From the NCBI GenBank assembly GCA_028386065.3, contig JAKUCV010002314.1, forward strand, positions 63,143 to 127,142: a stretch of DNA of 64,000 nucleotides, read 5' to 3'. The notes below the pieces were generated by a model. It was not told where the DNA came from. It saw only the letters and a list, made by a program, of their open reading frames with translations, and did no database searches. This document shows positions 1,861-56,446 of the stretch, piece after piece. Position numbers and translations under genes: made by a program. The DNA is from Turnera subulata (Eukaryota > Streptophyta > Magnoliopsida > Malpighiales > Passifloraceae). How positions within the stretch are numbered: position 1 is the stretch's first letter; the number at the start of each line of letters is the position of its first letter.

Positions 1861-3728
1861 GACCCATATCTTTCAAGTAAAGCGCATGAGGCGTGTATTT
1901 TTCTCCAAACCAGATCTAAAATTTCAAAATTCAAGTACACCATGTCTCAATCCTTACCGATCTTGGCCGGATAACCACTCATTCAATCAAATATTTTGTC
2001 AATCTTCCGCTTGTGAGGCTTCATCTCTCCTTATTAAGTTTCAAGTATTTCGGTTTCTCTCAATTCTGGTCCAATAGTCGGAGACAAAGTAAACCCACTT
2101 GCACGATGGGTCTCCATACCAGTACACCCACTAATTGGTATTGTGGGTTGGATCTTTACAGACACAGGCTCATGGTTGGCAACAAACGGTTGGATGTCTA
2201 GTTCAACCATGGTGGAGGAGTTGCAGATACCGCCAGATTCCGCGCAGTAGCGTCGGGAACCATTTTTTAGGGAGTCGCTTTGGCTCGCCCTAACAACCAT
2301 CAACTGAAGGTGGAGATTAGTCCGACATTTTGGTAGGGAGGCCAAAATGTCGTGGCCTTTTGGTCACCCTCAGGTGAGAGTCATCAATTCTTCCCTCTTT
2401 AGATTGATGTTTCAACTTCTTTTCTCCTTTTTCGATAACAATTCAAGGTCATGGGTGTTGTCCAACCACAATATTTTGTGCACCAAGCTTGGCCTCTGGT
2501 GGTTGGGATTGTGATTGAAGGGTTTGCTCTTTTTTGGGTTGTGTTGGTTTTGATTTTGCAGGTTTACAATTTGCACTCAGAAAAAGGAGCATGGATGCAA
2601 CACGCTTTCAATTATCTTAGTGCATGAGTTTAGCGAGAGTTGTGACTCTCTGACTGATAACCTTTCTTGATTTAAAGGAAATGTTGCCTATATAAAACAT
2701 GGTGATGGAATTGTTATTTGCAGTTTGCTCTCTTCTTTCTTTTTGCTGTAAAAAAATTGTATTTGGTTTGGATTTCATGTTTATATGGCTTTGCTTATGT
2801 TGATAGGCTTGGTTTCGAACAGATGTTTATGTCCAAGTTTTCACTAACACAAATATTTTCTATGTACTCCAGTAATATAACTGTTAACATTCTATAGATC
2901 CAAATAGAGATGAATACAAAGAAAACAGTATAATTAAATTATTCCAAACTAAATATGGTACTTAGATTAATAAAGATTTACCTGGAATTTCCAAAATGAT
3001 AAAATGATTCTATCGCTTGAAGTTGTGCCATGTGTCATAATTTCAGAACATTCTTTGGTGAAGGCTTTGGTATTACGTAGTAAAATCAGTGTTTTAAAAT
3101 CCAGTCCGTCCCTATTAGTTTAACCTATGTAACCGTGACCTGGTAAGTTTTTCAAGTCCACTTCCTTTGTAGTTTTTCGGTTGAACCCGGGTTTAATCAC
3201 TGTTGAATCTGAAAAACCGTGACTTGATAGCTCGACGGGGTCAATTGTCAGTCCGGATTTAACAACCATGAGTAGAGTAGACGTATTGGTGAATGATACC
3301 GTTTCAGGATAATCCTATACCTTATCCAGCATAAAAAGAATTCTCACAAAATCTTCCACAATCATCATACTCTTAAACCAGGATCATGAATTATGATGCT
3401 CAAGTCTCCTTCCCTGGAAGCGAATAATTAATACGCAACATTCGGGGTTAGACCGACACGCTTCGACGTCGTTTTATTTTAACGTGGTCCCGGATACGCA
3501 TCGAAAACGCTGGGCAAAACACGACAAAGCGAAAACCTATCAGGAGTAACCACTTGTTTCCCTGTGTGGCTCAAAACTTCAAAAAACCGTGAAGTAGTTG
3601 TAAGTACTTACTCTCAAACACTTCAGTCACTGAGAAATAAGGACTCTACCGCTTCCACTGTAGTAGGCAGCAGCCAGAGCCAGAGCCAGAGCCAGAGCAT
3701 AACAAGAAAAAACGAAAACGGTTACAAA
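1861..3728. other. Intergenic region upstream of the pyrophosphatase gene
   Basis: No coding region is supported. Short open frames near 1859-2345 overlap on both strands and resemble no family I know. The last ~250 bases before 3729 hold the promoter and 5' leader of the pyrophosphatase gene; a (cagagc)n microsatellite lies at about 3673-3697. An upstream in-frame ATG at 3564 would add 55 residues that do not look like a plastid transit peptide. Confidence 0.5.
3092..3275. mobile_element. Possible small MITE
   Basis: The left end gttttaaaatccagtcc and the reverse complement of the right end (gttgttaaatccggactg) are imperfect inverted repeats about 180 bp apart, and the body contains internal partial repeats (aaccgtgacctggtaag and aaccgtgacttgatag). 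No convincing target duplication was found, so this is tentative. Confidence 0.3.
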
Positions 3729-19594: not shown

Positions 19595-19885
19595 AGGCTA
19601 CTTGATAAGGACTTCATGTTTAGGACTAGAATTGTGATGGCCTGTGCCATTTAGGGTTTTCCAAACCACTCCCGAATCAGTTTCAATCACAACTCTGTGA
19701 AAGCCTCTAACTAGAGCTAGTTTAACCGACTCCATATCCTCTGCTGTCAGAGCCAAGCTACTAGTTGATTGAAACATGACATAAAAATAGCTTTGGAACC
19801 GCCTCTACCATGATTTTGCACTTTCCACGGTGGTATAGGATCCAAACTCATCATAACTTATTATGTACAAGCATTAATTTTGCCC
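19595..19885 (-). pseudogene. LINE-derived RNase H fragment
   Basis: Read on the minus strand the segment gives SLALTAEDMESVKLALVRGF followed by HRVVIETDSGVVWKTLNG, which fits the RVT_3 (RNase H-like) domain at the end of plant LINE ORF2. Frames are broken on both sides. A second, shorter copy of the same fragment lies in the duplicated block starting 21349. Confidence 0.6.
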
Positions 19886-20456
19886 ATTGGTGTAGGTAAT
19901 GGGACCAAGCATTTAGTTCAGTGTAGGCATGGTCCCTGGGGTGCTGGATCCTGGTAGTCAGTAGATAGGTATCATAACCACAGCTCTAGGTTCTTTCTTA
20001 TAATCTTCCTTATTCAAGTCTTATCATGCTTCAGCATCATTTCTTTTTGGTTTCCCAAAACCTTATCCAGAGTTTTGGCCCGACTAATCCGGTCGACCCG
20101 CGTCGCGCACCTGGGTATGGTGGATGGGTCTCCCAATAGGCATTTTCTGCATATACAAGGACTCGAATCCGAAACCTCGGATAAGCGGAACTACGTGATT
20201 TACCACTTGGACCAACCCCAAATTGATTGCTTCAGCATCATTTCTTGCCAAGTGGGAAGCTTCACGCAAATAACGATTTGGTTCCATACATGACTATTTA
20301 TTGAATCATTGTGGAATTGTTGAAGTTTTGCCTTTTCATCTACTTATAAAGTTATCTCCATAAGTAAATATCACAGCATGCAGCGAAAGGGAAAGATTTA
20401 ATACAAATCAATTGAAAAATATTACCATTTGATGTTAATTTGTTGCATATACGACA
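19735..20456. repeat. Segmental duplication, copy 1
   Basis: This block is repeated at 21349-21933 and, after the Copia-A insertion, 27748-27901. The two copies are collinear and differ by scattered substitutions (for example acatcgat-free positions such as ggatccaaactcatc against ggtccaaactcgtc). Both contain the same SINE at the same place, so the duplication is younger than the SINE insertion and older than Copia-A. Confidence 0.88.
20046..20227 (-). mobile_element. tRNA-derived SINE, copy 1
   Basis: On the minus strand the head carries a pol III A box (tggtccaagtgg) and B box (ggattcgagtcc) at tRNA-like spacing, and the 3' end is A-rich. A perfect 19-bp target duplication, tgcttcagcatcatttctt, is present at 20027-20045 and 20228-20246. 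About 182 bp, within the plant SINE range. Confidence 0.85.
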
Positions 20457-21348
20457 ACAATGAGTAAATAGTTTTTTATATCCTTATACTTTATCGATTT
20501 TGCATTTGTTGTCCTTTTTTATTTAATTTCACTCATTATGTCCCTGAACTTACAATTTATCGAGCCACCCTATCCTTTTTACACCTTATAACCGGTCGAT
20601 TGTCTTAATGCTGACACGTGTCACATGACCCCTTAGGCTGTCCATTTTTTATTTTTTCCCCATTTTTTCTAATTTTATTTTTAAAAATGTTTTTTTAAAA
20701 AAACAAATCAATTTTTTAAATAAAGTTAGTAATGTTGGGACCTACACACAAACATTAGTTGCAATTTCACCACAGACTATCACATAACCACCAATCGGCG
20801 ATAATACAAGCTTACTAATTGTAATATAAAATAAACCAATTAATTACGTTAAAAAAGTTAACTAATTAGTCTCACTGAATAAACAGGCCCAATTGAAACG
20901 AACCCAACTATCATCACGCCTCCATCTTCCTCTCAATTATTCTTCCTGATTCTTTCAATTTCCCTAAAATTTTTCTTCCTATCACTCACATTTATCTCCC
21001 CCATCGAAGCCACCTCTCCTTCGTCTTCCTATATCTTTCTCATTTTGCCTATGTTCCATCTGGGTTTAGGAAAAAGTTTTAGATTCAAAGGAACAAAACT
21101 TTCACCATAAACAGGCAACCAAAGCAACAAGAAGCACCAATCGCCGCCATTCCCTCATCCCTCCCTCTCTCCCTCATGCCTTCTTCTTAGCCCCTACATC
21201 CTCTGCGTCATAATCTATCCGCCGATGTTGTGCTCGAGTTATCCCACTAGTATTTTGCTCCTGTTGGAAACAAGAGTTTTTTTCTTTTCTTTCTTTTTTC
21301 TGGGTTTTTGCTGGGATTGGATTTTTTTTGATCGATCTGGGATTGGAT
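20457..21348. other. Spacer between the two duplicated blocks, probably a degenerate element
   Basis: The segment begins with a MITE-like arm (ccttatactttatcgatttt ... gacacgtgtcacatgacccc) for which I could not find the matching opposite arm, followed by AT-rich sequence and a pyrimidine-rich stretch around 20910-21180. No gene is supported. Confidence 0.35.
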
Positions 21349-21671
21349 TTAACCGACTCTATAGCCTCTGCTATCAGAGCCAAGCTACTAGTTGATTGAA
21401 ACATGACATAAAAATAGCTTTGGAACCGCCTCTACCATGATTTTGCACTTTCCACGGTGGTATAGGTCCAAACTCGTCATAACCTATTATGTACAAGCAT
21501 TAATTTTGCCCATTGGTCTAGGTAATGGGACCAAGCATTTAGTTCAGTGTAGGAATGGTCCCTGGGGTGCTGGATCCTGGTAGTCAGTAGATAGGTATCA
21601 TAACCACAGCTCTAGGTTCTTTCTTATAATCTTCCTTGTTCAAGTCCTATCATGCTTCAGCATCATTTTTT

Positions 21672-21853
21672 TTTGGTTTCCCAAAACCTTATCCGGAGCT
21701 TTGCCCTGACTAATCCGGTCGACCCGCGCTGCGCACCTGGGTATGGTGGATGGGTCTCCCAATAAGCATTTTCTGCATACACAAAGACTCGAATCCGAAA
21801 CCTCGGATAAGCGGAACTAAGTGGTTTACCACTTGGACCAACCCCACATTGGT
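21672..21853 (-). mobile_element. tRNA-derived SINE, copy 2
   Basis: The same SINE as at 20046-20227, carried along by the segmental duplication. The flanking duplications (21653-21671 and 21854-21872) are the same 19-mer with a one-base change in the left copy. Confidence 0.85.
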
Positions 21854-21933
21854 TGCTTCAGCATCATTTCTTGCCAAGTGAGAAGCTTCACGCAAATAAC
21901 GGTTTGGTTCCATACATGACTATTTATTGAATC

Positions 21934-22813
21934 TGTTGGCTTTGCTGTTTCTCAAAAACTGATAAATCACATGAACATCGATGTTGGAATCAAAACATCG
22001 ATGTTGTGATGATTCTGGAGCTCCAAATAATCCGGCCGAGAGCTTAGCACATCGATGTTGTCACAAGAACATCGATGTTGCACGAATTCTGGAAGGTTGG
22101 CAGAAGCTCTAGGACATCGATGTTGGCCCTAGAACATCGATGTTTTCTGGAAATTCCAGAAACCTTCAAGAACACCAAGAACACCAGAAAACCTGAATTG
22201 ATCAGAAGTGACTCTGAACCTTTCAGAGTTGTTCTATTAGTGATTGAACAACTGCGTTTACTCTCAAATTACACTCAGAAAAGAAAAGAATGGGTGTTTG
22301 ACAAGTCTCACAGAAATCACACTCAAGAACAGAATATGAACATGAAGAACATTCATGCAATTTTCCAGAATTCAACTCAAATCCAGAAACACAATCAATA
22401 TACACTAAATAATGTAACTCACTCAGGAAACTAACAAAATCAAACTCACTTGAATATGGAAGAGAACAACACGAAATTCTCCACACTTACATTACATTTC
22501 TCGTAGTTTAAATTTGTGTGGTTTTTCCACGTCAGGTGATTGTACCCATGAACACGTCTGTGTGTCTTAAGACTTTTGTGTGTCTCATTCGTACAATGAT
22601 TTGTTCGTACGAGTGGATTGGACTGTGATTTGTCCCTTAAACTTGGTAACACACAAAAGCATAGCAAATTAAAAACAACAATTACTCTCAGACTTCCCTT
22701 CACCAATCTTGTTTCTCTTCCTCCTTTGGTGGGGGCATCCGCAAACCAAACTGTCCATTCTTCCAAGCTGACCAATGGAGTCAGAATTGAGGCAACTTGA
22801 TCACATTCTAACA
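21934..22813 (-). repeat. 3' LTR of Copia-A (left on the map)
   Basis: 880 bp, TGTTGGC...TTCTAACA on the + strand. It carries three pairs of the palindrome AACATCGATGTT near 21974-22145 (one copy per pair may vary by one base). Positions 22502-22639 are the un-reversed complement of the same positions in the other LTR. Confidence 0.93.
22502..22639. other. Un-reversed complement patch inside an LTR
   Basis: Aligned column by column with 27431-27568 of the sister LTR (constant offset 4929), every base here is the Watson-Crick complement of its partner except three, while bases up to 22501 and from 22640 on are identical in register. It is not an inversion, because the order is not reversed. 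The surrounding LTR strand is A/C-rich while this patch is T/G-rich, which suggests this copy, not 27431-27568, is the altered one. Confidence 0.95.
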
Positions 22814-25800
22814 CTCCCTCTTGATCAAGTTGCTGCACACATTTAGTTGAGCTCTCAGCAATTGGGACTTCATTTTCGGAAGTGCCTTGGTGAATATGTC
22901 TGCTACTTGACTTTCGGAGTTGCAATACTAAACCTGAACTTCACCTTCATGCTCTGCCTTCCTTATAATATGGTACTTTATCTTGATGTGTTTGGTTCTG
23001 CCATGATCAATAGGATTTTTAATCATAGCTATTGCTGCTTGATTATCACAGAAGAGTTCAGTTGCCTTCATATCTCCTTGACCAAGATCCTTGAGTAATT
23101 TCCTCAATCAAATAACTTGATTAACAGCAGCTCCTGCAGCCAAATATTCTGCCTCTGCAGTGGACCGAGCAATGGCAGTTTGCTTCTTAGCACACCAAGA
23201 CACCGGATTTGAGCCAATCAAAAGCACAAAACCTGTTGTACTCTTCATATCTTCACAACTTCCAGCCCAATCACTATCACAGAAACCTTTAAGTTGAGCA
23301 TCACTGGAGGTACTATAAACAAGTCCATAATCTGTGGTGCCCCTGATATACCTCAAGACTCTCTTGACTGTTCCAGCATGGATTCTTTTAGGAGCATGTA
23401 GAAACCGAGAGAGCAAATTTACTGTGAACATCAAGTCTGGCCTTGTGATAGTAAAATACATTAAACTTCCCACAAAGCTCCTGTACTCCCTCTCGTCAGT
23501 TGCCTCTTCGTCTCCTTTCAAACTCAACTTTGCACCAACAACTAAAGGAGTCTCTGTTGGATTACATTCACTCATTTTGAACCTTTTCAAAATCTCCTCG
23601 GCATATTTTTGTTGTGAGATGAAGATGTACCCATCCTGTTGATCAACTTCAATTCCCAGAAAGTACTTTATTAGCCCCAAATCTGACATCTCAAAAACCC
23701 TTGCCATTTCAAGCTTGAATGCTTTCACCTTCTCCAAATTACTTCCTGTAATCAGAAGATCATCCACATAAAGTGATACAAATAGGAAATCCTCATTACC
23801 ACTGATCATGGTATAAAGAGTTGGATCATTAATGCTTCTTGTAAAACCAGAATTCAACAAGTGATCATTAATCCTGGTATACCAAGCTCTTGGGGCTTGT
23901 TTCAAGCCGTAGAGGGCTTTGATTAATCTGTACACATGATCTTCTTTTCCTGCCTCCACAAAACCTTCTGGTTGCTCCACATACACTTCTTCCTTAAGAA
24001 AACCATTAAGGAAGGCTGACTTGACATCCAAGTGAAAAACTTTCCACTTATGTTGAGCAGAAAGCGCCAGCAACAATCTGATGGTATCAATTCGTGATAC
24101 TGGTGCAAAGGTTTCGCCATAGTCAATTCCAGCCTCCTGCAAGTATCCCTTGACTACTAACCTTGCTTTGTGCTTGTGAATGGACCCATCTGCATTGAGT
24201 TTGAGCTTGAAAATCCACTTGACACCAATAACCTTCTTGTTTGCAGGCCTAGGTGTGAGTTCCCAAGTTCTATTTTTCTTGATCATTTCCATTTCTTCCT
24301 ACATTGCTCTTCTCCATTCTTCACTGCTTGCTGCTTGTTCAAAATTTGCTGGTTCCAAACACACTTGATTGCATTGTTCATATATTTCAGCCAAAGACTT
24401 GGTTCTCAAGGGTGAAGAATCTGAATCATAGTCTTCCTCATTCAATTCGTCTTCTTCCTTTTCTGCAGATGCTCTTGGCTCCTCCTTCTTTTCAGCCTCA
24501 CTTTTCTCCCAGTTCCAAAAAGCATTTTCTTTAACCTTTATGTCTCTACTTGTAACCACCTTTCCTTCATCCACCAACTCGATAACCCTTGGATTGAGAG
24601 CTATATCCCAAGAACACTGCTTTTCTTACCTTTGCTTCAAGCTTCTTCCTTGTCACATCTGGAACATGGACATAACACAATGATCCAAAAATTCGCAGAT
24701 GTTTCACAGTTGGTTTGACTCCACTCCAAGCTTCAATTGGAGTCTTCCCTTCAACAGACTTGGTAGGAAGTCTATTCAGCAAATATGCAGCAGTATAAGC
24801 TGCCTCTGCCCAAAACTTCAATGGCAACTTCTTGTCACTAAGCATGCATCTGACCATTTCCACAATAGTTCTGTTCTTCCTCTCCACTACGCCATTTTGC
24901 TGAGGTGTATATGCAACAGAGAGCTGGTGATGAATCCCCTGATCTTCACAGAATTTGTCAAAGTCTAATGATGTATATTCCCTTCCTCGATCAGACCTTA
25001 ACACCTTGAGCTTGCACTCACTTTTTCTTTCTGTTAATGCCTTAAATTTTCTGAACACAGAAAGCACTTCTGACTTGTGTCTCAAAAAATAAATCCAAGT
25101 CATACGTGAAAAATCATCAATGAAGAGTAAAAAATACAGATTACCACTCAAGGATGGTGTTCTCATTGGTCCACACAAATCAGAATGGACTAACTCTAGC
25201 TTCTCTTTGGCTCTCCAAGTTGCATTTACTGGAAATGAATTCCTATGCATTTTTCCTGCTTGACATGCTTCACAAACTCCCTCTAACTCACTTAACACAA
25301 GCAAGTCTCTAATCAATTGATTCACAGAGGCTTGCTTCAAGGATTGCAAATTAAAATGACCACATCTACGATGCCACAAACTAGTCTCTTCTTGACTACA
25401 GACAAGTGCCTTTTCAAAAGCAAATTCCCACCTTACTGGGAAACTATTGTTCTCCATTTTAACTTTTCTCAAAAGTTTCCCCTTTCCATCCACAATAACA
25501 CAGCATTCATCTTTAAATTCAACAGTGTAACCATTCTTCATCAATTGAGAAACACTCAGCAGGTTGTGCTTTAGTGTAGGCACAAAGAGAACATTCGAAA
25601 TAAGCTTTGTACCTTGCTTGGTTTTGACAACAACAATGCCTTTGCCTTCAGCTTGAACCACTTCTCCATTTGCCACCTTGACTTGAGTCGCAGCAGACTT
25701 ATTAAGCTCCTTGAACCACCTGGAATCACAAGCCATATGGTTTGTGCATCCACTGTCAATGAACCAAGTTGCAGCACTTGATTCATGATCAAAAGTGATG

Positions 25801-26816
25801 GCCATGAATATAAATTCCTCATTTTGCTGAAAATCAACCATTTTGGCCTGTTGTTGAGGTTGTATTTGATGCTGAGGAGGAGGTTGATCCTGCTGCACAT
25901 GATTTGAACTTGTTCCCTGACCCTGCTTCATTTTGCAAAATCTCTCAATGTGCCTAACCTTGTGGCAGAAATTGCATTTTTTGGTCCTCCAACATCTCTG
26001 TTCAGTATGACTTGCTTTTCCACAATGCTTGCAAGGTGGAAAATTTGTTTGAGATCCTCCCGTCTTTGCAAAATGCTGTGTATGTGGTTTCTTGTCTTTG
26101 AAAAACTTCGAGCTCTCTTTGTTAGAAGAGAACTTAGCAGCTTGCTTCACAAGTAAGGCTTCTTCCGAAAAGGATTCTGCCTTCTTTGTTTGCCTCTGTT
26201 CATGAGCATATAATGATCCCACAAGCTCATTTACAGTGATAGTAGTGATATCCTTGGACTCTTCAATAACTGGTACTCTTGCTTCGAATCTATCCGTGAC
26301 TGTGTTAAGCACCTTTTCTACAATCTTGAGTTCTGGAATCCTTTCTCCATACAACCTCATCTGATTCACAACTTCTTGTACTCTTGAAGAGTAACCTTTG
26401 ATTGATTCTTCTTCTTTCATCTTCAACATTTCAAATTCCCTTCTAAGTGTTTGAAGTCTCATCCGTCTTGTTCTTTCTGATCCTTGAAAGCTTTCCTGCA
26501 ACACTCCCCAAGCTTCTTTTGCAGTTGTGCAGCTCACAATCAGAAGGAAGATTGATTTAGAGACAAGTGAGTGCATGCACGTAATGGCTATATTGGCCTT
26601 TTGAACATTTTCTCTGTGAGTTTTCTGTTGTGCCGCAGTCAAGCTCGCTACATCTTCGGGCTCTTGATATCCATCTTGAATTTGTTCCCACAGGCCATTT
26701 TCCATGAAGAAGGCCTTCATCCTTACTGCCCAATAATCATAGTCTTCTCCATTAAAAGGAGGTGGGGCTGGCAGTGATGAAGTTGGATGTGAGGTTGATG
26801 CTGCATTATTCACCAT
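22808..26816 (-). pseudogene. gag-pol of Copia-A, four lesions
   Basis: Starts at ATG 26816 and ends with TAG at 22808-22810, inside the LTR. Domains in order: gag with two CCHC knuckles (CKHCGKASHTEQRC, CNFCHKVRHIERFC), protease with DSG (FIDSGCTNHMA), integrase with HHCC zinc site and HSDLCGPM, FIDDFSR, GVVERKN, then RT with YVDDLLITG and RNase H with CDSDWAG and STAEAEY. Lesions I can see: a frameshift near 24577, nonsense codons at 24299-24301 (TAG for a Glu-like codon), 23108-23110 (TGA) and 22928-22930 (TAG). Otherwise the frame is long and clean (749 and 394 codons), so the element was active recently. Confidence 0.92.
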
Positions 26817-26862: not shown

Positions 26863-27742
26863 TGTTGGCTTTGTTGTTTCTCAAAAACTGATAAATCACA
26901 TGAACATCGATGTTGGAATCAAAACATCGATGTTGTGATGATTCTGGAGCTCCAAATAATCTGGCCGAGAGCTTAGAACATCGATGTTGTCATAAGAACA
27001 TCGATGTTGCACGAATTCTAGAAGGTTGGCAGAAGCTCTAGGACATCGATGTTGGCCCTAGAACATCGATGTTTTCTGGAAATTCCAGAAACCTTCAAGA
27101 ACATCAAGAACACCAGAAAACCTGAATTGATCAGAAGTGACTCTGAACCTTTCAGAGTTGTTCTATTAGTGATTGAACAACTTCGTTTACTCTCAAATTA
27201 CACTCAGAAACGAAAAGAATGGGTGTTTGACAAGTCTCACAGAAATCACACTCAAGAACAGAATATGAACATGAAGAACATTCATGCAATTTTCCAGAAT
27301 TCAACTCAAATCCAGAAACACAATCAATATACACTAAATAATGTAACTCACTCAGGAAACTAACAGAATCAAACTCACTTGAATATGGAAGAGAACAACA
27401 CAAAATTCTCCACACTTACATTACATTTCTGCATCAAATTTAAACACACAAAAAAGGTGCAGTCCACTAACATGGGTACTTGTACAGACATACAGAATTC
27501 TGAAAACACACAGAGTAAGCATGTTACTAAACAAGCATGCTCACCTAACCTGACACTAAACAGGGAATAACTTGGTAACACACAAAAGCATAGCAAATTA
27601 AAAACAACAATTACTCTCAGACTTCCCTTCACCAATCCTGTTTCTCTTCCTCCTTTGGTGGGGGCATCCGCAAACCAAACTGTCCATTCTTCCAAGCTGA
27701 CCAATGGAGTCAGAATTGAAGCAGCTTGATCACATTCTAACA
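26863..27742 (-). repeat. 5' LTR of Copia-A (right on the map)
   Basis: 880 bp. Six copies of AACATCGATGTT (one with a first-base change) start at 26903, 26923, 26977, 26997, 27042 and 27062: three pairs, each 20 bp start to start. In element orientation they lie near the 3' end of the LTR, just before the primer binding site, so probably in transcribed leader sequence. Confidence 0.93.
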
Positions 27743-27901
27743 GAATCATTGTGGAATTGTTGAAGTTTTGCCTTTGCATCTACTTATAAAGTTATCTCCA
27801 TAAGTAAATATCACAGCATGCAGCGAAAGGGAAAGATTTAATACAAATCAATTGAAAAATATTACCATTTGATGTTAATTTGTTGCATATACGAGAACAA
27901 T

Positions 27902-28172: not shown

Positions 28173-30241
28173 CTAAAAAGACATGAACTCCAGTAACTTG
28201 TTTAAGGCATTGTAGGATGAACCCCCTCTTCCCATGCCTAGTTCAATCTTTTTCTTGAAACTCTTAGCTCTTACCCTTATTTCTTCCCCTTTTTCATCCA
28301 CCATTATTCGTCTCACAGCTCTAGCTACTTCCTCACCATCCAACTTGCTCTCCAATTGCAAGCCTATTCCCCACACATGACTAATGTACCTAGCATTTAC
28401 TAGTTGGTCCCCAAAATTAGGCCTGCATATCATTGGGACCCCTTCAGCTATACTCTCCAGGGTGGAATTCCAACCACAATGGGTCAAAAATCCACCCACT
28501 GCAGCATGTGCTAACACTTGCTTTTGAGGTGCCCACTTCACAATGCAACCCCTTTGGCCAACAGTTTCCAGAAAACCCTTTGGTAGTAATTCAATCCATT
28601 CTGAACCAAGGATGGACCCAGGCCTAATCACCCACAAGAATTTCTGCTCGCTGTTAGCAAGTCCGCGGGCCATTTCAGCAATTTCCGTCTCCTGGATAGA
28701 GACCACACTTCCAAAGCTTACATAAAGGACTGACTTCTCAGGTTGCTTGTTAAGCCAAGAAATGCAGTTGGTGTCCTCCTTTAATAGGCTACTGCTCGAA
28801 GAGGGTGGTGCATATTTGTGCATGGGGCCAATTGGAAATATTGGAACTGGGCACTGCTTCTGCAGCTGTGCTAGTAATGGCTGTTCAAGGCAATCAATGG
28901 TATTCCATACAACAGCTGAAGATGTTCTCGTGTGGCATGCCTCTGCTATGAGCTTCAAGAACTTGTCCTGTGCATTGTACTTGGAAACTGGCAGATCCTT
29001 GAACCTTAACAGTGGAAGATCCGGGACTGGCTCTCCTAATGCAGAATCTGCATGCACCCAGATTTAATTATTTGCAAAAACAAAAGATTAAAATTTAAAA
29101 TAAAACTTTTTTTCCCTTCCTACGACGTATATCTTGGAGAAAGCTTTCTCCATTCCACAAAAGAAATAAGCAAAAAAGAAAAAGAGAGTTTCATATATGA
29201 ATGAGTTTGAGTCAATTTCATTAGTATCTCTCCTCCTGTAAAATAATAATAATAATAATACAAGCTTGCAGGATGGAGTTATATATGTCGCTTGTTAAGA
29301 ATGTGACTTTGATGAACTATTATATCTTTACTGTTTTTTTGATAAGACTATAATATCTTCACTTATCATATTTATGTGACTAATGTTTCATTAGATTTAT
29401 AAGAACTGAACTACAAATTAGTCAATTACCATGTTGTTAGTGTTGATAAGTTCTTGCGTCAACTAATCAGCAGTATTTTCAATTCAATACAAAGTATACC
29501 CTGAGTGTATCAGATACTAAAGGACCATGCATATCTCTAACTCCAACGACAACACTACCTACGGGGGCCGGACTGCAAATATGCACAAGATCATCAAGAC
29601 CTCAGAGAAAAGACAAGATAATTTGATTTCCTGCTTCCTCAAGCGGTGGGATATGAACACTGACAAGTTAAATGCAGTTGCTCAATATAATGCAACATAA
29701 GGGTTCTAGAACTGTACGTGATATGAACAACTAGTATGCAGCACTTTATATGGTCATTGGAGTCACCTTGAAAAGGGAAGCGACCTTCTTCTACGAGGTG
29801 CATAATGGCAAGACGAGAAGCAAAAGTGGCTGCGTTGATTGTTCGCAAAATAATACTTGGAAGCTCTAGATTATTGGCAGCAGCTTCAGCGAAATACATG
29901 AGATCATCATATATAACGCAGGTGACCTGACCACGTCTGAGCACTATCTGTTCAAGGCATTCCTGGAAAGGGTGTTTGCATTTGATATTAAGTCCCGTTA
30001 TAATCTCTAGTAGATTCCCAGAATCGATAACATCCTCTGCCAAGCCATCCTGTATGGATTGGAAGTCGAACTCGGGATGCCTGGAGGGGTTAGGGGAATT
30101 GTATTGGGTGTGAACAATAGTGATGGAGTAGCCCTTAGAATGGAGGGCAGCTCCTAGCTGAAGCATTGGATTTATGTGTCCTTGGAACGGACATGGAATA
30201 AGCACCACACGGGGCTTTCTTTCTCCCTGATTTTGATCCAT
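28173..30241 (-). CDS. UDP-glycosyltransferase, UGT76-like
   Basis: Family 1 glycosyltransferase that transfers a sugar, usually glucose, from UDP-sugar to a small acceptor in the cytosol. Two exons: 29767-30241 and 28173-29047 (phase 1 junction, donor GTGACT, acceptor CAG), 449 aa, stop TAG. The N-terminus has the catalytic-His segment FQGHINPMLQLG at about residues 18-29. The C-terminal PSPG box begins WAPQKQVLAHAAVGGFLTHC and ends with Asp-Gln (NFGDQ), the ending usual for UDP-glucose donors. Length and the position of the single intron fit the UGT76 group (cytokinin, nicotinate or terpenoid acceptors in various plants). The acceptor cannot be told from sequence. No break is seen; Copia-A ends 430 bp beyond its stop codon. 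Confidence 0.93.
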
Positions 30242-31499: not shown

Positions 31500-34400
31500 C
31501 CCCAGAGTTCTACGGGCTTGCTTATTAATTAATTTTTTGAAAAAAATTTCACATTTCTAGGCATTTATTATGTAATATTAAAAAAACTTGTACATAACTT
31601 GTTTTCAAATTATATATTTTTATCAATTTTTTTTCATTTTGTCATATAGATTTGGAAAATAAATAAAAAATTATTAAAATATAAATTAGAATATAAATCA
31701 GAAAAATAAATAAAATAAAATATTTAATAATAATATAAATAATAATTAATTTTTTAAACTTAAACATGCATTATTGGCCCCTAAAACAAAAACATATTAA
31801 ACAACTGAAGAAAAATTTAAAAGAATTAATTAATAATAACCAAAAAATAAAAAATATAAGAGAGCAATTTTTAAAACATAAATCAGTAAATGAATAAAAA
31901 ATATTATTATATATAAAAAAAGAAAAATATAATATAGATCAAAAAAATAAATTCTTAAAAACCTAATAAATAATAATATAAAAAATAATTAATTTTGCAA
32001 AGTTAAACATGGATCATTGAGCCAAAAAATAACAAAAATATTAAACAACGGAAGTAAAAATCAAAAGCATTAATGAAGGATAACCAAAAGTAAAAAAACC
32101 TAAGAGACTAATATTAAAGAAATATAAACCAGGAAAATAAATAAAAAAATAAAATTATGCAGAAAAAATAAATTAGAAAATAGAATATAAATCAAAAAAA
32201 TAAATAAAATAAACTGTTTAATAATCATATTGTAACAGCCCGGGTAATTTTTTTACGTTTTTACCGTCACCGTAAAATTTATTTTACAGTTATTTACCAT
32301 AAAAATTAATCTTGGGTAATTAATTTACGGTAATTCGTGCATCGGATTTTGAAACCGAGCCCAGTCCCACGCTCGGGATTTTTCTGCGGATTTTCCGGAC
32401 CAAGTTGGAATTTTTCGGGTCCAGGAATCTTCAGAAAAGTCAGGATTAACCCCAAATTATCGGGCCAGAAATAAAGTCAAGGGGGTACATTTGTTATTTT
32501 CTGGTCCGGACAGAACCCGCCTCACATGCTGCACAGTGAAGGGGCTGCAGCCGCCATTCACTGTGAGGCATGTGAGCAGCCAGTGCATGCCCGTGAGTCT
32601 TTTTTCTTCTTCTCCTGCCTTAACATTTCCTCTGCAAAAACTCTTCAACACTCTGCTTATCTGCAAAACCTATTTCCTGCAAACTTCACCTGCAAAAAAA
32701 AAAAAACAACAATTCTTACAACTCACCTTAGAAACTTGCAAATGAAAAGAAGAAAAAAAAAAACAAACAAGACAACACACCCACACCAGCAACGTTGCCG
32801 TTTTGGGCAACCACCACCCACCACCATCTTTTCCCCTCCTTTCCTTTTTCTTTTCTTCCTTCACCCGAGCCACCACTGCCGGCCACCACCACACCACCTC
32901 TCCACCACCAGCACTCGCCACCAACCACTTTTCCTTCCCTCTCTGCCGCGACACCGCCGCTATCCTCCCCGCTGCAGATCGTAGCAGCCACGCCGACAGT
33001 CGCCCGAGACCACCTTCTCGTCGCACCACGTCAATCGCCGTCCCTGCTCGTCCGATCTCCCCGCTCGCGCCGCCTTCTCGCAGCCGCCTCGTCTCCTCCT
33101 CGTCATCGCCTCGCTTGCTTGGTCTCGCCGTGCCGCCTCGTTCCGTCGTCGAGCTCGCCGTCTGCAAGGTGAGCTGCGGGTCGATGGTGACCCATCTGAG
33201 GCGGGTCGACCCGCGACCTGGATGCTTTGTGGGTTAAGTCTCGCGGGCTGGGCCGAGCTAAGATGGGTTGACTTGTGTTTGGGCTGGGTAGGGTTCCAGG
33301 CCTGCGTGTGGGCTTAAGTCTGGGCTCCTGGTTGGGGCCTGGGCTTGGCACTATGCATGGACTGGGCTGACACTAATGGCCCAGTCCGAATTTAATTAAA
33401 AAAAAAAGAGAGAGAAAAGAAAAAGAAATATTCTGGAAAATAAAATAGATATAATTTTGGGAATAAAAATAATTTGTGTTCTGGAAAAAAATATATAAAT
33501 GTGATAATGATAGAAGAGTAATTAATTTGAGGATATAATCATGGAAAAAAAATAATAATAGTAATTAATAATTTTGGAAAGTACATACTTATAGAAATAA
33601 ATATGGAAAGGGTATTATCAAAGTATGTAATAAAATACCGGAATAATATCCGAGTATAGGTATAAGTATAGTATTATTTTTGACACCTAGAAATAAATGG
33701 TGAATGATGATGATAATAGAAATTAACCCGGGGAAGTAACCGAGACGAATTAGTATTTATTTTTCGGTATACAGTAGTAGCATGACATTGCATATCACTT
33801 ATGTGTGCATATTATTTGTTTGATATAGGAGTTGATAACGAGCAGATACCTGAGGAACCGGACTTGGAGTCTGTTGGACAATTCCATAACTGAAAATCGG
33901 CTAAGGTGAGGATGGATAACCTTGGATATGTGCCCGTAATACTGTGTTTGTTTTTGTTGTTTGATTGAACTACTGGATTGATTATCGACTGTTATTTAAT
34001 TGCTGTGGAAATTGTTGATGCTGTTGTTGGATTGTGTTTAGACTTGCGGATATTGTGTTGTATAATGCTGAACTGTTGGCTGAGATTAATTGACGTTATG
34101 AGTCTGTTGATGATTTGAGCTGAGGAATAATCTGGAATAATGGGAAGTTGGATAATTGAGAATAGAGTAATGAAACTGGACTGAACTTGAGATGATGATA
34201 TAATTGTCACGTGGAAAGTAGTGGTACGACTAGATGGTTAGAGGCTAGTTTTGTGGTGTCATGGCCGGTTTGGTTGGTTGTTGGGGATGTTGATCCCGGA
34301 TTTGTTGATATTGGGATGTTGATCCCGGATTGGTTGTGATTGGGATGTTGATCCCGGATTGTGTTTTGGCCTGGCATCCGGAATTAGTTAATAACCAGGT

Positions 34401-35700
34401 ACGACCTTAGTTTGTCCAGTGACGGGGCCCGGAAGATAAAATTGGTAATAATAATAATAAGCATTCTTTTGGTCTTGGCTTAGTTGTTTTATGGTAGATT
34501 CCTTGTGTTGTGATTGTCTGTGCTTATTTCGAAAGTATTACGGTTGATTATATATCTCTGTTTATCCTTCGTCGGTGAGCACTTCGAACTCACCCCTCAC
34601 CTGCGGGGTTTCATCCCGTAGGTTTGGTTGCTTCGTAGTTCAGGTACGACGTACGTTGGCTGCTGCTTTCTTCTCCACCTGACTCTAGATCCATACCTCC
34701 GCTGCACGTGCATATAAGACTTCCGCTGCTGTGTTACATATGTTGCTGTGTTGCTGCTTTCCTATTTGACTTATGATGATGTTTATACTGGTTATGCTGT
34801 TGCTGTTGAGCTAGTGTGTGGTTTGAATAATGGTCCCCGTGTATGGGTGACAGATGATGCTTCTGTTGTATTTGGATTTAATATGTAGTATTTTGACTGC
34901 GATGTACTGTTTGTTCCATCAATAAGGATAGTTTCGGCACGTGTTTACTGTGTATGGTAAATACGGGTCGGGGCGCTTCACATATAAATAATACTTAATT
35001 TTTTATATTTAAACAAACATCAGTGAGTCCCAAAATAAAAAAAATATATATTAAACAATAAAAGAAAAATGAAAAAAATTAAATAATAATAAACAAAAAT
35101 ATAAAAAAATAAAAGGGTAATTTCTAAAAATAAAAAATTAGGAAAAAACTGAAAGAAACTATTATTACGAAAAAAATTAAAATAGAAATTAGAAATAAAA
35201 TTAGAAAAAATATAATAAAATCCTCAATAATAATATAAATAATAGTTAATTTTGTAAATTTATACCTGCAACATTTATGGATCCATGCTTGGGCCTATAT
35301 AATTGACCCTAAAACAAAAAAATATTAAACACAAAATAAAAAATTACAAGAATTAATTAATAGTAAACAAAAAAATAAAAAACATAAAATGAGTCATTTT
35401 TAAAATAAAAATCATAAAAATAAATAGAAAAATATATTATTATGTATAAAAAATTTAATACAAAAAATAAAATATAAATCTGAAAAATAGATAAAAAATA
35501 TTTAATAATAATTAATTTTATAATTTAAACATGCATAATTGAGTCCTAAAATAAAAATAAAAAAATATATAAAACATAAAAGAGACCACAAAAAAATATT
35601 ATATAAAGTAATAATATAAAGAACAATTAATTTATGAAATGAAAATTTAACAAATTAAAAGACATGAAAAATTAAAACGTACTTTTGCATCAATTAAACT
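31500..35700. repeat. AT-rich tandem modules of about 250 bp
   Basis: A phrase close to aaacatgcattattgagtcc recurs at 31762, 32005, 35011, about 35271 and 35527. After removing the solo LTR (2755 bp including one target copy) the spacing is about 243, 251, 260 and 256 bp. The stretches between also share phrases (aataataatataaataataattaa type). Copies are diverged. Confidence 0.6.
32231..34980 (+). mobile_element. Solo LTR of a large Ty3-type family
   Basis: Begins tgtaacagcccgggtaa, ends ggtcggggcgcttca, and is flanked by the 5-bp target duplication catat (32226-32230 and 34981-34985). It has no gag-pol, primer binding site or second LTR, so it is best read as a solo LTR of 2750 bp. GC-rich Ser/Pro-coding stretches around 32800-33240 are frame chance rather than genes. 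Three copies of the hairpin GGGAT-GTTG-ATCCC lie at 34284-34297, 34313-34326 and 34342-34355. Confidence 0.85.
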
Positions 35701-38258: not shown

Positions 38259-38370
38259 AACCAACAAACCCTCTGGGAAGACACCACAGAACTAGTCTCT
38301 AACCATCTAGTCGTACCACTACTTTCCAAGTGACAATTACATCATCATCTCAATATCAAATCCAATTCCA

Positions 38371-39955
38371 TTTCCAATACTCATTAAAGGAAAGAGTTAA
38401 TAGGTGTAACTGGTCAAGTAGTAATAAGAGTTGTGTCATAGTGTTAAGGTTATAGTGTCAGATTGTAGTAGTAGTTTATTCCTCAGGTTAATCCACAATC
38501 ACATTCGATCAACAACCTCATGTCACCAATTATTCACAAATAGCAGTTCAACAATATTTCCAATGCAACATACACAGGTCTAACACGATTCAACAACAAC
38601 AACAACATCATCAATTCCATAGCAACCAAGTAACAGTCAACAGTCATTCCAGCAAATCAAACAAACAACAAAATACACACACAGCATTACGGGCACATAT
38701 CAAGGTTTATCCATCCTCACCTGGTATGTCTCTGAAACTGCTATCCAGTCAAATCCCGATACCCTATACGTACATATAGGAACAAAATAATCACTTATAA
38801 TGCACAACAAAATGATTATGCATGATACCGGTTTAGAAATCGTTACACGGCTTGCCTTATATCCAATTTCTTTATTATGAAATTAACCTCTTTATTCATT
38901 ATACCATTTATACTTAATTTCAAATTAAAACCAAAACCGAATTTTCTTATCGATATTCTAATTATTCTTAATTTTTAAACTAAAACCAAATCCGAACGTT
39001 CAAGCCGATATCCCGGCCTTCTAACCCTTTGTCGATAAGGGAAAAACATAAGCATATTAGAATACATGTATATATACGTATATTTATACATAAATTGATA
39101 CTAGATTATATGTATATCTAGTGTGACCATATTTATACATATATAGTAGGTAATTCCCATTTAACCTTATGTTTATATTTATGCGATAAATCAAGTTGTA
39201 ACTTCATTATTTAGCTAAACATAAATTTAGTAGGATATATATATATAGTCATTTATACGTATGTGTTTATAATTCATCAATAATCATATTTATATTTTAG
39301 GCTTACATTTGACAACTAAATCAAGTGAATAAGTATAATTGGGCCTTTAATTATCAACTGTCCAAGTGTACATTAAATAAACCGGATTACTAATTTCCAA
39401 TACTCATTATTCCTTTCTCAATTATCCACATTGACCAGTTCATCATTATTCTCAACACAGTATCACAATTCCAATATCACAGTCTAACATCATCATCAAT
39501 ATTCCTCAGGTTAATCCACAATCACATTCGATCAACAACCTCATGTCACCAATTATTCACAAATAGCAGTTCAACAATATTTCCAATGCAAGATACACAG
39601 GTCTAACACGATTCAACAACAACAACAACAACATCATCAATTCCATAGCAACCAAGTAACAGTCAACAGCCATTCCAGCAAATCAAACAAACAACAAAAT
39701 ACACACACAACATTACGGGCACATATCAAGGTTTATCCATCCTCACCTGGTATGTCTCTGAAACTGCTATCCAGTCAAATCCCGATACCCTATACGTACA
39801 TATAGGAACAAAATAATCACTTATAATGCACAACAAAATGATTATGCATGATACCGGTTTAGGCTTACATTTGACAACTAAATCAAGTGAATAAGTATAA
39901 TTGGGCCTTTAATTATCAACTGTCCAAGTGTACATTAAATAAACCGGATTACTAT
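38371..39955. repeat. Imperfect tandem duplication within the LTR
   Basis: 38371-38856 matches 39394-39861, and 39301-39395 matches 39862-39955; the second copy lacks the part equivalent to about 38846-39300. The copies are nearly identical outside the patch 38387-38476, so the duplication is recent. Confidence 0.85.
38387..38476. other. Second un-reversed complement patch
   Basis: Aligned at constant offset 1023 with 39410-39499, all 90 bases are the complement of their partners, with no exception, while both flanks are identical in register. The related LTR at 32231-34980 (read in reverse) has the 'tctcaattatcca' wording of the 39410 copy, so 38387-38476 is the altered one. Confidence 0.95.
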
Positions 39956-41879
39956 AGGTCTTTCTAATAGTCCAATAAGAAAAAAATTATGAATCGAATT
40001 ACAAAGCATAAATGGAATTAAAAGTTAATATTTGATTAATTAAATTAAATCTTTATTTTAAATTAAACAATTAAGAGTCCGGGCTCATTAACGTTGTTCG
40101 GGTTTCGTTATTAGAATTCGGGGTCCGTTGGTAATGCATATATGTCACGGTAATATGGGCCTCCGCACGTTCGGCCCGTTTTCGAGTCCGTGTGCAAACC
40201 GAGCCCAAACCCGTGCCAAGGTATAATGTGAGTCCAAGGAATTACCGAAGCGTCCGTCCTTTGAGTTCCATTTGCTGAAGACGTACTGTTCACACCGGAG
40301 TTGCCCGGGACTCGCCGGAACCTCGCCGGAATCCGGCGGTTACTGTTCACCGGAGTAGAACACAAGGCCACAGTTTACTGTTCACGAAACCATTTTAACT
40401 TCCTATTGCGGTTCGCCATTCATCATCATACCCAACCCCAAATCAGCACCATTCTGGTCATCGAATCCGCACCCAGGTGCGCCATAGTTCACATCCACAG
40501 CCTCCATCAAGCAACCCACCAAAAAGACAAGCCAATTACTCACTATTCTCAACCAACGAATGAAAGCATGAGAGGATCGAGGTTTCTTACCATGGAACCC
40601 ACCGGCTTGCGCCCGGCAGTGAGGTAGATCGGGAAAGAAGAGGAGCAGAAATTGAGGAAGGGAAGGGATATAGTGGCGGGGATGAGGAAGGAAATAGAGG
40701 AGGAGATCGGCGGCGTTAGGCGGCTGCGAGGAGGAGTGGTTGTGGGCGGCGGTGTGTGCAGAGGTGGTGTCAAGCTCGGCACGGCTTCGTCAGGCGGCGG
40801 CGCTGTTACGGACAGCGAGAAGGCGATACGACGAGGCGACGCGACCGGTGGCGACACAACAGAGGGCGACGGCTGTCGCTGGCCGTAGGAGGTGCGTCTC
40901 GGTGCTGCAGATCGGGACTACTTCATCGTCGCCGGTTGGTCTCCACGGAACGGCGTCCTGCAGTCGCGACGGAAGGAGGAGAGGAGGATGGCATCGACGA
41001 CTGGGTCTGGTGGCGCGGCTCCGGCGGTGTCTCGGGTGGCAGAGGTGGTTCACGGTGGTGGCGGTTGCAGGTGTGGGTGGAGAAGGGGATGAAGGGAGAG
41101 ATAGAGGCAGAGAGGGGGTTCGGCTTGTTGGTGGCAGGGAAAAGGGATGGGGCACTGATGGGTGTGTGTGGTTGGCAGAATGGAGGAGAAGATAATGAAA
41201 ATGAAAGGGAAAAGAAGACAAGGGAGAAAAGAGAATAAAGTGGGGAGGGCCAGCTCGTGGAGAAAACGGGAAGGGGAAAGAAAAATAAAGAAGAAGGGGA
41301 AGGAAGAAGACAGAAAAATAAAGAAAAAGAAAGAAGTGGGGGTAGGCGGCGGCTGAAGGAAAAAGAGAGGAGAAAAGAAAGAAAAGAAAGAAAAGGGAAG
41401 GAAAAGAAAAGGAGGAAAAAGAAGGAAAAGAAAGAAAAGAGGGAAGAAAGTGGGACCCGCACGGCTGGGGAAAAACCGGGAGAGAGGAAAAACGTAGCCG
41501 GGAAAGAGGAAGAGAAAGGAGAGAGGAGGAAGAAGAGTGGCTCGGGCAACCACATTCGGCCGGTCCGGATTCTCGTGTCGGAATCCCGTAAACGCAGGGA
41601 TACTCCCGTCTTTCCGACAAATTCCATCCTGAGTCCAGAAATACAACTTGGGCTCGGAAAATCCGATTAATCCTCCTGAACGTCGTCCAACTCTCGGAAC
41701 TGTAAACCGAGGCTCGGTTAGTCAGGAAGATGCTCCCGAGCGCGGGAAAACTCTCGTTTTCGAAAAACGACTCCCGTTTTACCGTGAATTAATTACCCAA
41801 GGTTAGTTCGTCCGGTAATTCATTGTATAATGACTTTAACAGTCCCGGTAAAAATCCAAATTTTACCCGGGCTGTTACA

Positions 41880-42599: not shown

Positions 42600-44039
42600 A
42601 GCATTTTTTCTTTTGAGAATCAATTCATTTTCAATTGCAAAAATAGGTTAGGAAAACCCTAACAAGATGGACATAGAATCAATTTACAGAAGCTAAACAC
42701 CTGCGTATCTACAACTAAGAAAGTCTAGGCACTATTACAAATATAATCAAAACTTAATGCCCCAAAAGTCACATAGTTCTTGTGATTCCATAGACAGAGG
42801 ACGGGGTTTAAGCTTGGTTAAGCCACGAAAAAAGAAATCTTAAGTGAAGACAAATTACAGCTATAACAGCATCAGATGATCGAGAATAAACAATGTGAGA
42901 AATAAATGGCATTCTGTTCAGGCCATAAGTGGTAAATACATGCACACCAAGCAAGCCACAAAATCAAGGCCTTAATAGATTTCTTTTGAACAAACTGTTG
43001 TGCCCAAAGGAACTCAGAATGCCAAGATTTGACTGTTAGAGAAGCATTACAAAGAAAAAGCAAGACATCAACTGAACAAGAGCATTCAAAAAACAGATGG
43101 TTGCAAGATTCCTCATGGTGAGAATAGAGACAAAATGCATCAGAAATAACACCCCAGTTACGCAGCCTCACACTAGTGGTCATCTTATCTAAAATAACAA
43201 GCTAAGAGATGAAACTATGCTTTGGTTTAAAGCTGGTTGACCACAACAATTTGAACCATGGGACTCGAGGCTGCTTAGTGCGAAGGAAGTTTCAGGCAAC
43301 TTTAACAGTGAATGAACCAGAGAGGGAGAGGGTCCAATGTATACAGTAGAGGATGGAACAATACAATCTATGGCTGATTAATTGTTGTAATTGTGAGATA
43401 ATAGGCAGGATGTAGACTAGTTCCAGGAATTTGCCAAAATTAAGATCATCCACATAAACCAAGAAATAAGCTTTAATTCCATTCTTTTGATAAAAGAACA
43501 AATAGGTTTCGGACTAGGCATAAGCAACTATCAAAACTTTCAGTCATGATACTAGGCGCGAAGAGCCTGTTTAAGAACATAGAATGCTTTTCGAAACCTG
43601 CACACATGAGAAGAAAAATGAGTATCAACCGGGAGGTTGAGACATAAAGAATAACTTAACATATGAACTTTAGCTTGAAGTGGGGTTTTGGTACAGGAAA
43701 TAGGAGAGGAAGGAATAAGAGAGTGCAAAGTATCCTAAGGGTGCCAATTACCCCACCAAATAAAACAAAGGTTGCTTCTCCATTGCCAATGGTGTGAGAA
43801 ATAACACAAGAGAAGAGTGGGTGCAAATTAAGGAGTTTCCTCATGCTCAAAGAGCAGTATCAAGGGATAGGTAGGCTCAAGATACTTCTGTCTTTAACGA
43901 CATAGATAGAGATTCAAGCAACCCATGAGAACCAGCACACAATAGCAAATTCGACAAGTGTTAGGTAATGCAAGCCTGATTCCCGTCCTTAAGTTTTTTC
44001 AGACCAAGTCCCCTTTCTTGCTTTGGTAGTGTTGGCTTT
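42600..44039 (-). pseudogene. LINE ORF2, 3' portion (zinc-binding RT domain)
   Basis: Minus-strand reading just downstream of the Copia-B insertion gives LPKQERGLGLKKLKDGNQAC, the conserved segment that follows KVAWSDL at 57.3 kb, so this is the continuation of the LINE at 57310-58190. Further on come PKHSFISWLVILDKMTTS with an internal stop, then CNHLFFECSCS, typical of the zf-RVT domain. Several stops and frameshifts make it a pseudogene. The 3' end is near 42604, where the minus strand is A-rich. Confidence 0.8.
43430..43640 (-). pseudogene. Small Copia RT remnant within the LINE
   Basis: Minus-strand frames give HVCRFRKAFYVLKQALRA and then, in another frame, FFYQKNGIKAYFLVYVDDL, matching the Copia reverse transcriptase region around the YVDD box. 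It is frameshifted and embedded in LINE sequence. Confidence 0.5.
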
Positions 44040-44551
44040 TCTTTCTTCAATCAATTTTGACAGAGCTCAAGAACATCGATGTTGAACTCAAAACATCGAT
44101 GTTTTGAGAATTTAGAACTCCAAATAATCTGGCAGTGTACTTAGAACATCGATGTTTAAATACTACTGGTCTTCAAAATAATTCTGCCGAATGCTTTGAA
44201 CATCGATGTTTGGTTTAAAACATCGATGTTGAAATGCTACTGGAACTTTGATTAAATTGGTAGAATGTTTTCAACATCGATGTTGGAACAAGAACATCGA
44301 TGTTTCTTCACACTGGAACTTCAAACAATCTGGGCAGTAGTTTTGAACATCGATGTTGTGGCTAGAACATCGATGTTTTTTGGGAAATTCTGGAAAATTT
44401 CCAGAAAACTGCAGAAACCAAGAAGCTGGTTTTCTTGGTTACTGTTTCATTAATTTTCTCTCAATTCACTCAATCTCTTGGCTTGAACACTTAATGAACA
44501 AGTCAAGGAACACTTAATGAAGTGAAACACACTCAATTCACTCTTATTTCA
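44040..44551 (-). repeat. 3' LTR of Copia-B, first part
   Basis: Contains most of the paired AACATCGATGTT palindromes seen in the right LTR; one half-pair is missing through a ~20-base deletion after 'gaacatcgatgttt'. The LTR is cut at 44551 by Copia-C and resumes at 52071. Confidence 0.92.
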
Positions 44552-44906
44552 TGTTGGGTTATATAGGTTATGAGGCCCACTAGAGGTGGTGAGGCCCACT
44601 GGATCCACCCATAAGTTGGGTGCTCATATGTAACCCTAATATACCTCCTATATATACTTATTATTCTTTGGCATAAGGGCTAAGAATAGAATATACAAGG
44701 GTGGCTAGGTTACACCCACACACACCTAACACACAGCTCTAGAAGAGAGGTTTAGGCAGTGGAAACTATGGAGTTGATCCGACACACTGTGACAACCCTA
44801 CACGACCGGTAGATGAAGACCTGGACTCCAAGATCTTCCACTTCCGCTGCAAGGACATCAAGTAGGTGTCCTAATTTACTTTATTCAGGATATATGTTAT
44901 CCTTCA

Positions 44907-50400: not shown

Positions 50401-50640
50401 TAGTGAGACTGCAATTTCCATTGCCAAGAATAGTTAGTTTCACCAAATAAGTAGACATCACATACAACTATGCAGATGGCATTGTTGTATGCAAGGTTGT
50501 GAATGTGAAGTATCTGTCTATAAGAGACAAGTGATTAGATGCACTGTTTAAGCCTTTACCTTGGGATGTGTTTGTGGAACACATTAGGTATTAAAATTGT
50601 GTAGGCTTAAGTACTTCATTTTATGCTTATTATTTTCCCA
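47458..50640 (+). pseudogene. Degenerate gag-pol of Copia-C
   Basis: Short in-frame pieces show the family: LMLDGDNYKKWNLEFQY (gag) near 47490-47540; ELVDLIEGHNAIGNKCVFIS and KLKAGGIVEKFKTQLIGKKY (start of RT) near 49270-49390; QTDVNNAFLNGD near 49495-49530; an RNase H-like FLTVIEAKYVALASAV near 50270-50320; and KPLPWDVFVEHIRYL near 50550-50590. Many stop codons and deletions; clearly not coding. Confidence 0.85.
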
Positions 50641-51710
50641 AAATTCACAACCTGTGTTTAATGTTCATGCTATCAAATAAGTTGATTTGCATACATACAT
50701 GTGGATGAATGTTATGTACATTCCTCATTTATTTTGTTTAAGAGTATGTCGAGTAGACACGAGGTTAGCCCTCTCACACGGGTAACCGCCTCCTTATCTT
50801 AGTGATAAGTGGAGATGAGACAGATTTTAAGCGAAATTATCAGACGGATAATTTGAGAGCTTGTGGCTTAAAATCATAAATGTCGACTATATAATGACAT
50901 AAGGTCATTTTTAATGGTGGAATACGTTCATCAAGTCTACTTAGTGGGCCAGATGCGAGTTCAAGTTGATGTGTAGATCGAGGAACTCAAATTTGGACAC
51001 ATATGGTGTCTAAATATCATCTGTACAGCATTCCATATGGGAATGACATACGCTCAACGGGAAAAGAGAAAATGTTGTAGCACATGTTTCATACCATGTG
51101 TGCGTTTTGTCGACCACGGGTTAGCTAGAGTGTGATCTCAACTTCTAGTTGTGTGAGACCTGGAGCTTCTATGATGGCTCTACCTTATGTACCCTCAGTA
51201 CTCCTATCAGAGACTTGAGATTCGGTTTGATGATCGCTATCTTAGTATGTTGCCTAAGGACCATGTACACAGATTCGGTCTGGCGAGACATGTCTAGAAA
51301 AGCGAGTTGGGCCGGGTCAAGGGAATCGTGAGAAGAGGAAGGTCATAGACAGAATCACATTAGCCTTGTATTCACCGGTGCACCAGTTATGACGTACGGT
51401 TATAATTGTGAATACATTGCGTTGTACTGCATTGCATTACGTTGCATTGCATCACGTTTTGATAGAGGAGATCATATGGATGATTCCTAATGTGATTCAG
51501 ATGATCTAGGGCACTTGCATACTTTTTGATCTACTTGCAGGTACTTTCTCGACGAGAGGCTATATATCCCTAACAGGTGTATAGCATTTTGCTCTCATAG
51601 TATGCCGGTCGCACTGTTCTATTTCCTTGTATGACTATTGTTGTTGTGGCAAGAATGAGTTTCTTGCAAATTGGTGTTTTGAGCACTCTCACTTATGTGT
51701 GAGTGGGAGA

Positions 51711-52065
51711 TGTTGGGTTATATAGGTTATGGGGCCCACTAGAGGTGGTGAGGCCCACTGGATCCACCCATAAGTTGGGTGCTCATATGTAACCCTAATA
51801 TACCTCCTATATATACTTATTATTCTTTGGCATAAGGGCTAAGAATAGAATATACAAGGGTGGCTAGGTTACACCCACACACACCTAACACACAGCTCTA
51901 GAAGAGAGGTTTAGGCAGTGGAAACTATGGAGTTGATCCGACACACTGTGACAACCCTACACGACCGGTAGATGAAGACCTGGACTCCAAGATCTTCCAC
52001 TTCCGCTGCAAGGACATCAAGTAGGTGTCCTAATTTACTTTATTCAGGATATATGTTATCCTTCA
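51711..52065 (+). repeat. 3' LTR of Copia-C
   Basis: 355 bp, identical to 44552-44906 except for one A/G difference near the start (ttatgaggccc against ttatggggccc). Confidence 0.95.
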
Positions 52066-52070
52066 TTTCA

Positions 52071-52392
52071 CTTGTTGAAACCAGATTACAAATCTCAAAT
52101 ATATAGGCCATGTTCCAGCTTGCGGCAGCAACTTGTAGCCCCATACCTTCAACCCATACTACTAGTGCAGCATGAAGACCCATAATCCACTAAGCTGATC
52201 TTCTTGGTTTGCTGACTACCAAGAATGATCAGATAACAAAGAGAACAGTACAATAATAAAAAGACACACACAACTTGCACACTTCTCCTAACACACTTAA
52301 GTTGATGGGACCAACCACACAGCTTGATTATTCTCCACTAACTCCACTAATAACTTGATCACACTAATGCAGCTTGATCACATAATCTAACA
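52071..52392 (-). repeat. 3' LTR of Copia-B, second part
   Basis: Continues the LTR interrupted at 44551; it ends tctaaca at 52392 and is followed by the purine tract and the end of the gag-pol frame. Confidence 0.92.
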
Positions 52393-56349: not shown

Positions 56350-56446
56350 TTTGAAGTTTGGTGTTTGGAAGGTGTTTGGGGCTAATTTGTTGTGGTTTCA
56401 ATGAATTAGAACAGGCCTGAAAGAAGGAACCTGCTCCGCTACCAAT

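Follow-up and report, generated by a model that had tools for sequence, protein, structure and literature searches.

The Copia-A element and its surroundings

Copia-A is an ordinary Ty1/copia retrotransposon on the minus strand of the window (the whole 64-kb stretch of DNA analysed here), with two TG...CA LTRs, a 5-bp target duplication (GAATC) and integrase ahead of reverse transcriptase, the Pfam domains PF14223, PF00665 and PF07727 occurring in that order by ORF positions. The longest identical run between its LTRs is 154 bp, and a scan of viral_contigs with part of the Copia-A polyprotein as query returned no relative. The surrounding segment is duplicated (19721-20461 against 21348-21933 plus 27743-27901), and because one copy carries Copia-A and the other lacks it, the latter presents an empty target site. 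The features of the element are:

20303 to 20307, plus strand: unfilled target site GAATC, in the paralogous copy without Copia-A
21934 to 22813, minus strand: left-hand LTR of Copia-A, 880 bp, starting with TGTTGG and ending with CTAACA, with 13 differences over the 742 positions outside the patch described below
23108 to 26816, minus strand: coding part of Copia-A with gag, integrase and reverse transcriptase in two ORFs (PF14223, PF00665, PF07727)
26863 to 27742, minus strand: right-hand LTR of Copia-A, 880 bp, followed by the GAATC target duplication

Further along lies Copia-B (44030-57309), whose right LTR measures about 860 bp and whose left LTR appears interrupted at about 44552-52067 by a nested element, the latter bounded by 358-bp terminal repeats that are 99.7% identical. 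The LTRs of Copia-A and Copia-B hold several copies, uncounted, of the palindromic motif AACATCGATGTT (21990-22145, 44141-44305 and 56561-56741). The window also carries a UGT gene, with an exon at 28173-29057 that is 100% identical over 99% to the Turnera subulata protein Tsubulata_002887; its first and second exons (158 and 291 residues) together give the whole 449-residue protein with no difference. These matches make T. subulata very likely the source of the window.

Same-order complements within two unrelated repeats

Occupying the same place within the two Copia-A LTRs, positions 22502-22639 and 27431-27568 complement each other without any reversal of order at 135 of 138 positions and are identical at 0 of 138 (offset 4929), with the register exact, as the original prediction had described. 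The match to the twin LTR resumes at position 22501 on the left and from 22640 onward on the right without any shift, and since no base is its own complement, the borders of this patch (patch 1) are exact on both sides. The flanks had been called identical, which holds for the missing shift and for the nearest 28 and 69 bases (the closest differences lie at 22473 and 22709), but not for the flanks overall, which reach 98.2% identity over 568 bp and 98.3% over 174 bp. Chance had been excluded as an origin, and is indeed ruled out: a given placement has a probability of about 10^-76, and there are about 10^9.3 possible pairings. The exclusion of an inversion likewise stands, because reverse-complement identity between patch 1 and its twin is 44/138 and mirror identity 42/138; the latter also rules out mirror symmetry.

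A second parallel complement, absent from the original prediction, lies about 16 kb away, where 38387-38476 complements 39410-39499 at 90/90 positions and in register (patch 2). Its left flank is identical over 17 bp, and its right flank reaches 99% identity over 137 nt. Both patches sit in near-identical repeats, and the two repeats are mutually unrelated. The stretches concerned are:

22502 to 22639, plus strand: patch 1, seemingly the altered copy; a 138-bp parallel complement with a base context unnatural as written and natural once complemented
27431 to 27568, plus strand: twin of patch 1 in the other LTR, seemingly ordinary by complement comparison and base context
34121 to 34190, minus strand: third copy facing patch 2, used for deciding which copy is altered
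38387 to 38476, plus strand: patch 2, seemingly the altered copy; 90 bp, 90/90 complement, flanks in register, the third copy siding with its twin
39410 to 39499, plus strand: twin of patch 2, seemingly ordinary by complement comparison, base context and the third copy

In the same neighbourhood, a 470-bp segment (39393-39862) is a close copy of 38370-38836 and stands between exact 97-bp copies at 39296-39392 and 39858-39954; the arrangement in 39296-39954 reflects either a patch-type break repair or another assembly join.

To place these patches within the window as a whole, the 64 kb were compared with themselves after applying each of the 24 base permutations, both forward and reversed, using 16-base words with low-complexity words filtered. 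Ordinary direct and inverted repeats aside, long diagonals came only from the plain complement in forward order, and these were patches 1 and 2; the other permutations in this filtered scan, in either order, gave short, self-matching or scattered words only. A self-comparison of the window that allowed gapped complement matches agreed, in that the two patches were the sole matches of at least 90% identity and at least 40 bp, with 0 such matches in the reversed control. At E values up to 10 this search returned 99 matches forward and 106 in the reversed control. The ten next-best forward matches after the patches had 58-64% identity and lay in stretches of 80-90% A+T, and among all forward matches of at least 60 bp other than the patches none exceeded 71.1% identity.

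Only repeats make such patches visible. The near-identical pairs able to reveal them comprised 8 pairs with at least 93% identity (2,692 compared positions) plus the 880-bp LTR pair, which the 93% filter had dropped because patch 1 itself lowers LTR-pair identity to 88.7%. For a related reason, a search for complement matches adjoining ordinary repeat matches listed patch 2 and missed patch 1, since the LTRs align as a single 88.7% piece running through the patch. Two patches per roughly 3.6 kb of comparable repeat pairs is a high rate, which counts against the gap-filling reading given below. The UGT exons, which agree with the annotated protein, contain no patch.

Polarity and divergence of the patches

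In both cases it is the left copy that appears to have been altered, to judge from the sequence. For patch 1 we judged polarity by two properties, base context and composition. The context model was strand-symmetric and trained on the window minus the four stretches (patches and twins). It favours the right copies as they stand and the left copies in complemented form: at order 3, patches 1 and 2 score -6.0 and -6.7 against +4.9 and +6.9 for their twins, and equally low scores occur in 0.45% and 0.04% of windows. An order-1 model separates them less clearly, with 3.4% and 0.9% of windows as low. Patch 1 holds 6 CpG and 0 GpC while its twin holds 0 CpG and 5 GpC, against 1438 CpG and 2368 GpC in the whole window; patch 2 and its twin have 0 CpG and 0 GpC. 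A and C together make up 0.36 of patch 1, and 0.48 to 0.70 of 138-bp windows along the right LTR.

Patch 2 could be polarised further with the inverted third copy at 34121-34190, which aligns with the twin of patch 2 at a score of 36 (p 0.005, 2000 shuffles) and with patch 2 itself at a score of 13 (p 0.37, shuffles). The original choice of the left copy as the altered one is therefore backed by base context for patch 1, and the same polarity is backed by the third copy as well for patch 2. Copia-B left the polarity of patch 1 undecided, as its score against either form of the stretch was no better than that of 12 shuffles. A third copy of this LTR stretch turned up neither in Copia-B nor among predicted proteins nor by exact junction patterns: the ORF of the right LTR had no homologue among predicted proteins at E values up to 10, the ordinary junction occurred 0 times as an exact pattern in genome_contigs and 0 times in viral_contigs, and viral_contigs, the sole set searched for the altered junction, held 0 exact matches to it. 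An exact LTR word was likewise found 0 times in viral_contigs.

After complementing, 3/138 positions of patch 1 differ from the twin, compared with 13/742 elsewhere in the LTR (Fisher p 0.73). Patch 1 is therefore ordinary LTR sequence that has diverged like its surroundings, and no mere duplicate of the right-hand one.

When windows were scanned blind for unnatural base context, the patches came fifth and sixth among the 15 listed. Four windows scored below them (34536-34655, 40072-40191, 3431-3550 and 801-920); none of the four has a twin showing a patch, and for this reason we claim no further patch. In these four and in 3070-3189, which also lacks a patch-showing twin, the base context looks more natural when complemented; 34536-34655 overlaps ordinary repeat copies.

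Origin of the patches

The window carries an assembly flaw of another kind near its right end:

61968 to 62440, plus strand: direct duplication around the single N at 62204, 236/236 identical, read as an unmerged contig overlap

SSPACE, when it joins overlapping contigs without merging them, leaves an N with duplicated flanks, and the single N with its exact 236-bp direct duplication on either side points to such an unmerged contig join nearby, which speaks for an assembly origin of the patches as well.

We consider patches 1 and 2 most likely a gap-filling error of the draft assembly and not biology, on the grounds that two patches lie in unrelated repeats, that the divergence of patch 1 is LTR-typical and that the assembly route included a gap closer with a 155-bp limit. 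The T. subulata draft, to which the window appears to belong, was built from a PCR-free Illumina PE250 library and mate pairs, and its assembly is described as DISCOVAR de novo followed by SSPACE, GapCloser v1.12 and a further scaffolding round, with the maximum read length in GapCloser set to 155 bp (PMC9862265). Both patch lengths, 138 and 90 bp, fall below this read limit for filling. A fill extended leftward from the right flank of a gap, on the opposite strand, would be the reverse complement of the true fill; reversing it without complementing would then yield the plain complement, with order, length and register all correct and with exact joins to both flanks. Patches 1 and 2 would accordingly be former scaffold gaps in which a complement step was missed when the fill was written back, and we infer that GapCloser, and not another step, wrote them. 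The original prediction had left room for a single biological puzzle, a reading that the second patch, the ordinary divergence and the gap closer do not support. It had also named an artefact as a possible outcome, and the second patch, the patch divergence and the assembly route now favour it.

Gap-filling errors of a general kind are on record. Read mapping validated 6/46 full closures by GapCloser in a sea bass draft and 2737/3299 in a bed bug draft, so that unvalidated GapCloser fills are documented in general (PMC6551238). The errors reported are doubtful sequence placed at gaps between correct flanks, as our patches would be; they are described as read-unvalidated closures and greedy filling, whereas an un-reversed complement is not among the errors in the available text of these sources (PMC6551238, PMC9575681). 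Among the matches listed in a literature search, none was a published description of such a GapCloser fault.

One conserved 16S word, taken as its parallel complement, occurred 0 times in genome_contigs. Some of the genomes in that set were presumably gap-closed in the same way, and this absence would count against a fault common to all drafts. With 154 bp as the longest run identical in both LTRs, 250-bp reads could have separated them, so that a gap at patch 1 would call for additional, more similar copies at other places in the genome.

Should the gap-filling reading be correct, published drafts may contain un-reversed complements introduced by a widely used gap closer; such patches keep length and flanks and become visible only beside a near-identical copy.

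Among the other explanations, the one that survives best is that the patches entered after deposition, through file handling or a deliberate alteration of the window. We regard this as unlikely: the operation is trivial for any script, but the published pipeline, as far as it is described in PMC9862265, has a step capable of making such patches, and the window has its other assembly flaw in the single N with its exact duplication. Still less probable is another assembly step, for example a consensus caller that complemented reverse-strand reads already in reference orientation. A complement applied column by column should also yield exact register, and both patch lengths fit within one 250-bp read; against this, the main text of PMC9862265 names no polishing ('polish' occurs 0 times).

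Real DNA could in principle arise from polymerisation that exchanges A<->T and C<->G over a stretch ('swinger' replication), and both patches show its defining pattern, a sharply bounded exchange that is systematic along a long stretch. As of 2016, swinger DNA was described as known only for exactly A<->T + C<->G, with sharp switches, as in Kamimuria wangi, where 16S rDNA of this kind lies within an ordinary mitogenome (PMC4942731), which speaks for this explanation, and RNA swingers follow other rules too, for instance A<->T in 219/347 ESTs (PMC7027195). Published swinger DNA thus resembles our patches in being a same-direction complement with sharp switches and register kept, and has been attributed to polymerases, mostly for mitochondrial sequences and rRNA genes (PMC4942731, PMC7027195). 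The patches differ in being short, in lying within nuclear repeats of a gap-closed short-read draft and in having a software cause at hand.

Several observations make swinger replication a very improbable source of the patches. Its one DNA rule is what a strand slip in software would be expected to make; the parallel complement of the 1542-nt E. coli 16S gave 0 matches in 20,395 E. coli records; and patch 1 shows no extra divergence. We know of no enzyme or chemistry for swinger replication. That swinger DNA should be restricted to the one strand-slip rule seems to fit software better than polymerases, and published swinger DNA and our patches may share such a cause. The gap-filling reading, if it holds, would accordingly offer a plain explanation for the reports of swinger DNA, leaving the RNA reports under other rules uncovered.

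Equally slim is the prospect that the plant DNA truly carries parallel-complement tracts, formed within recombining repeats when a strand was read and its partner's letters were laid in the same direction; the patches would then be two independent cases in nuclear repeats, 16 kb apart and each accompanied by an ordinary twin. If raw reads did carry the patches, they would call for a kind of DNA synthesis that is not accepted at present. Least of all can an ordinary inversion or a mirror-repeat effect within the LTR account for patch 1. Inversions are a familiar route to an exchange of strand letters, and a small LTR inversion would, like patch 1, exchange them within sharp borders, but it gives the reverse complement whereas patch 1 keeps the order, so that the low reverse-complement and mirror identities given above refute this explanation and leave it practically no chance.
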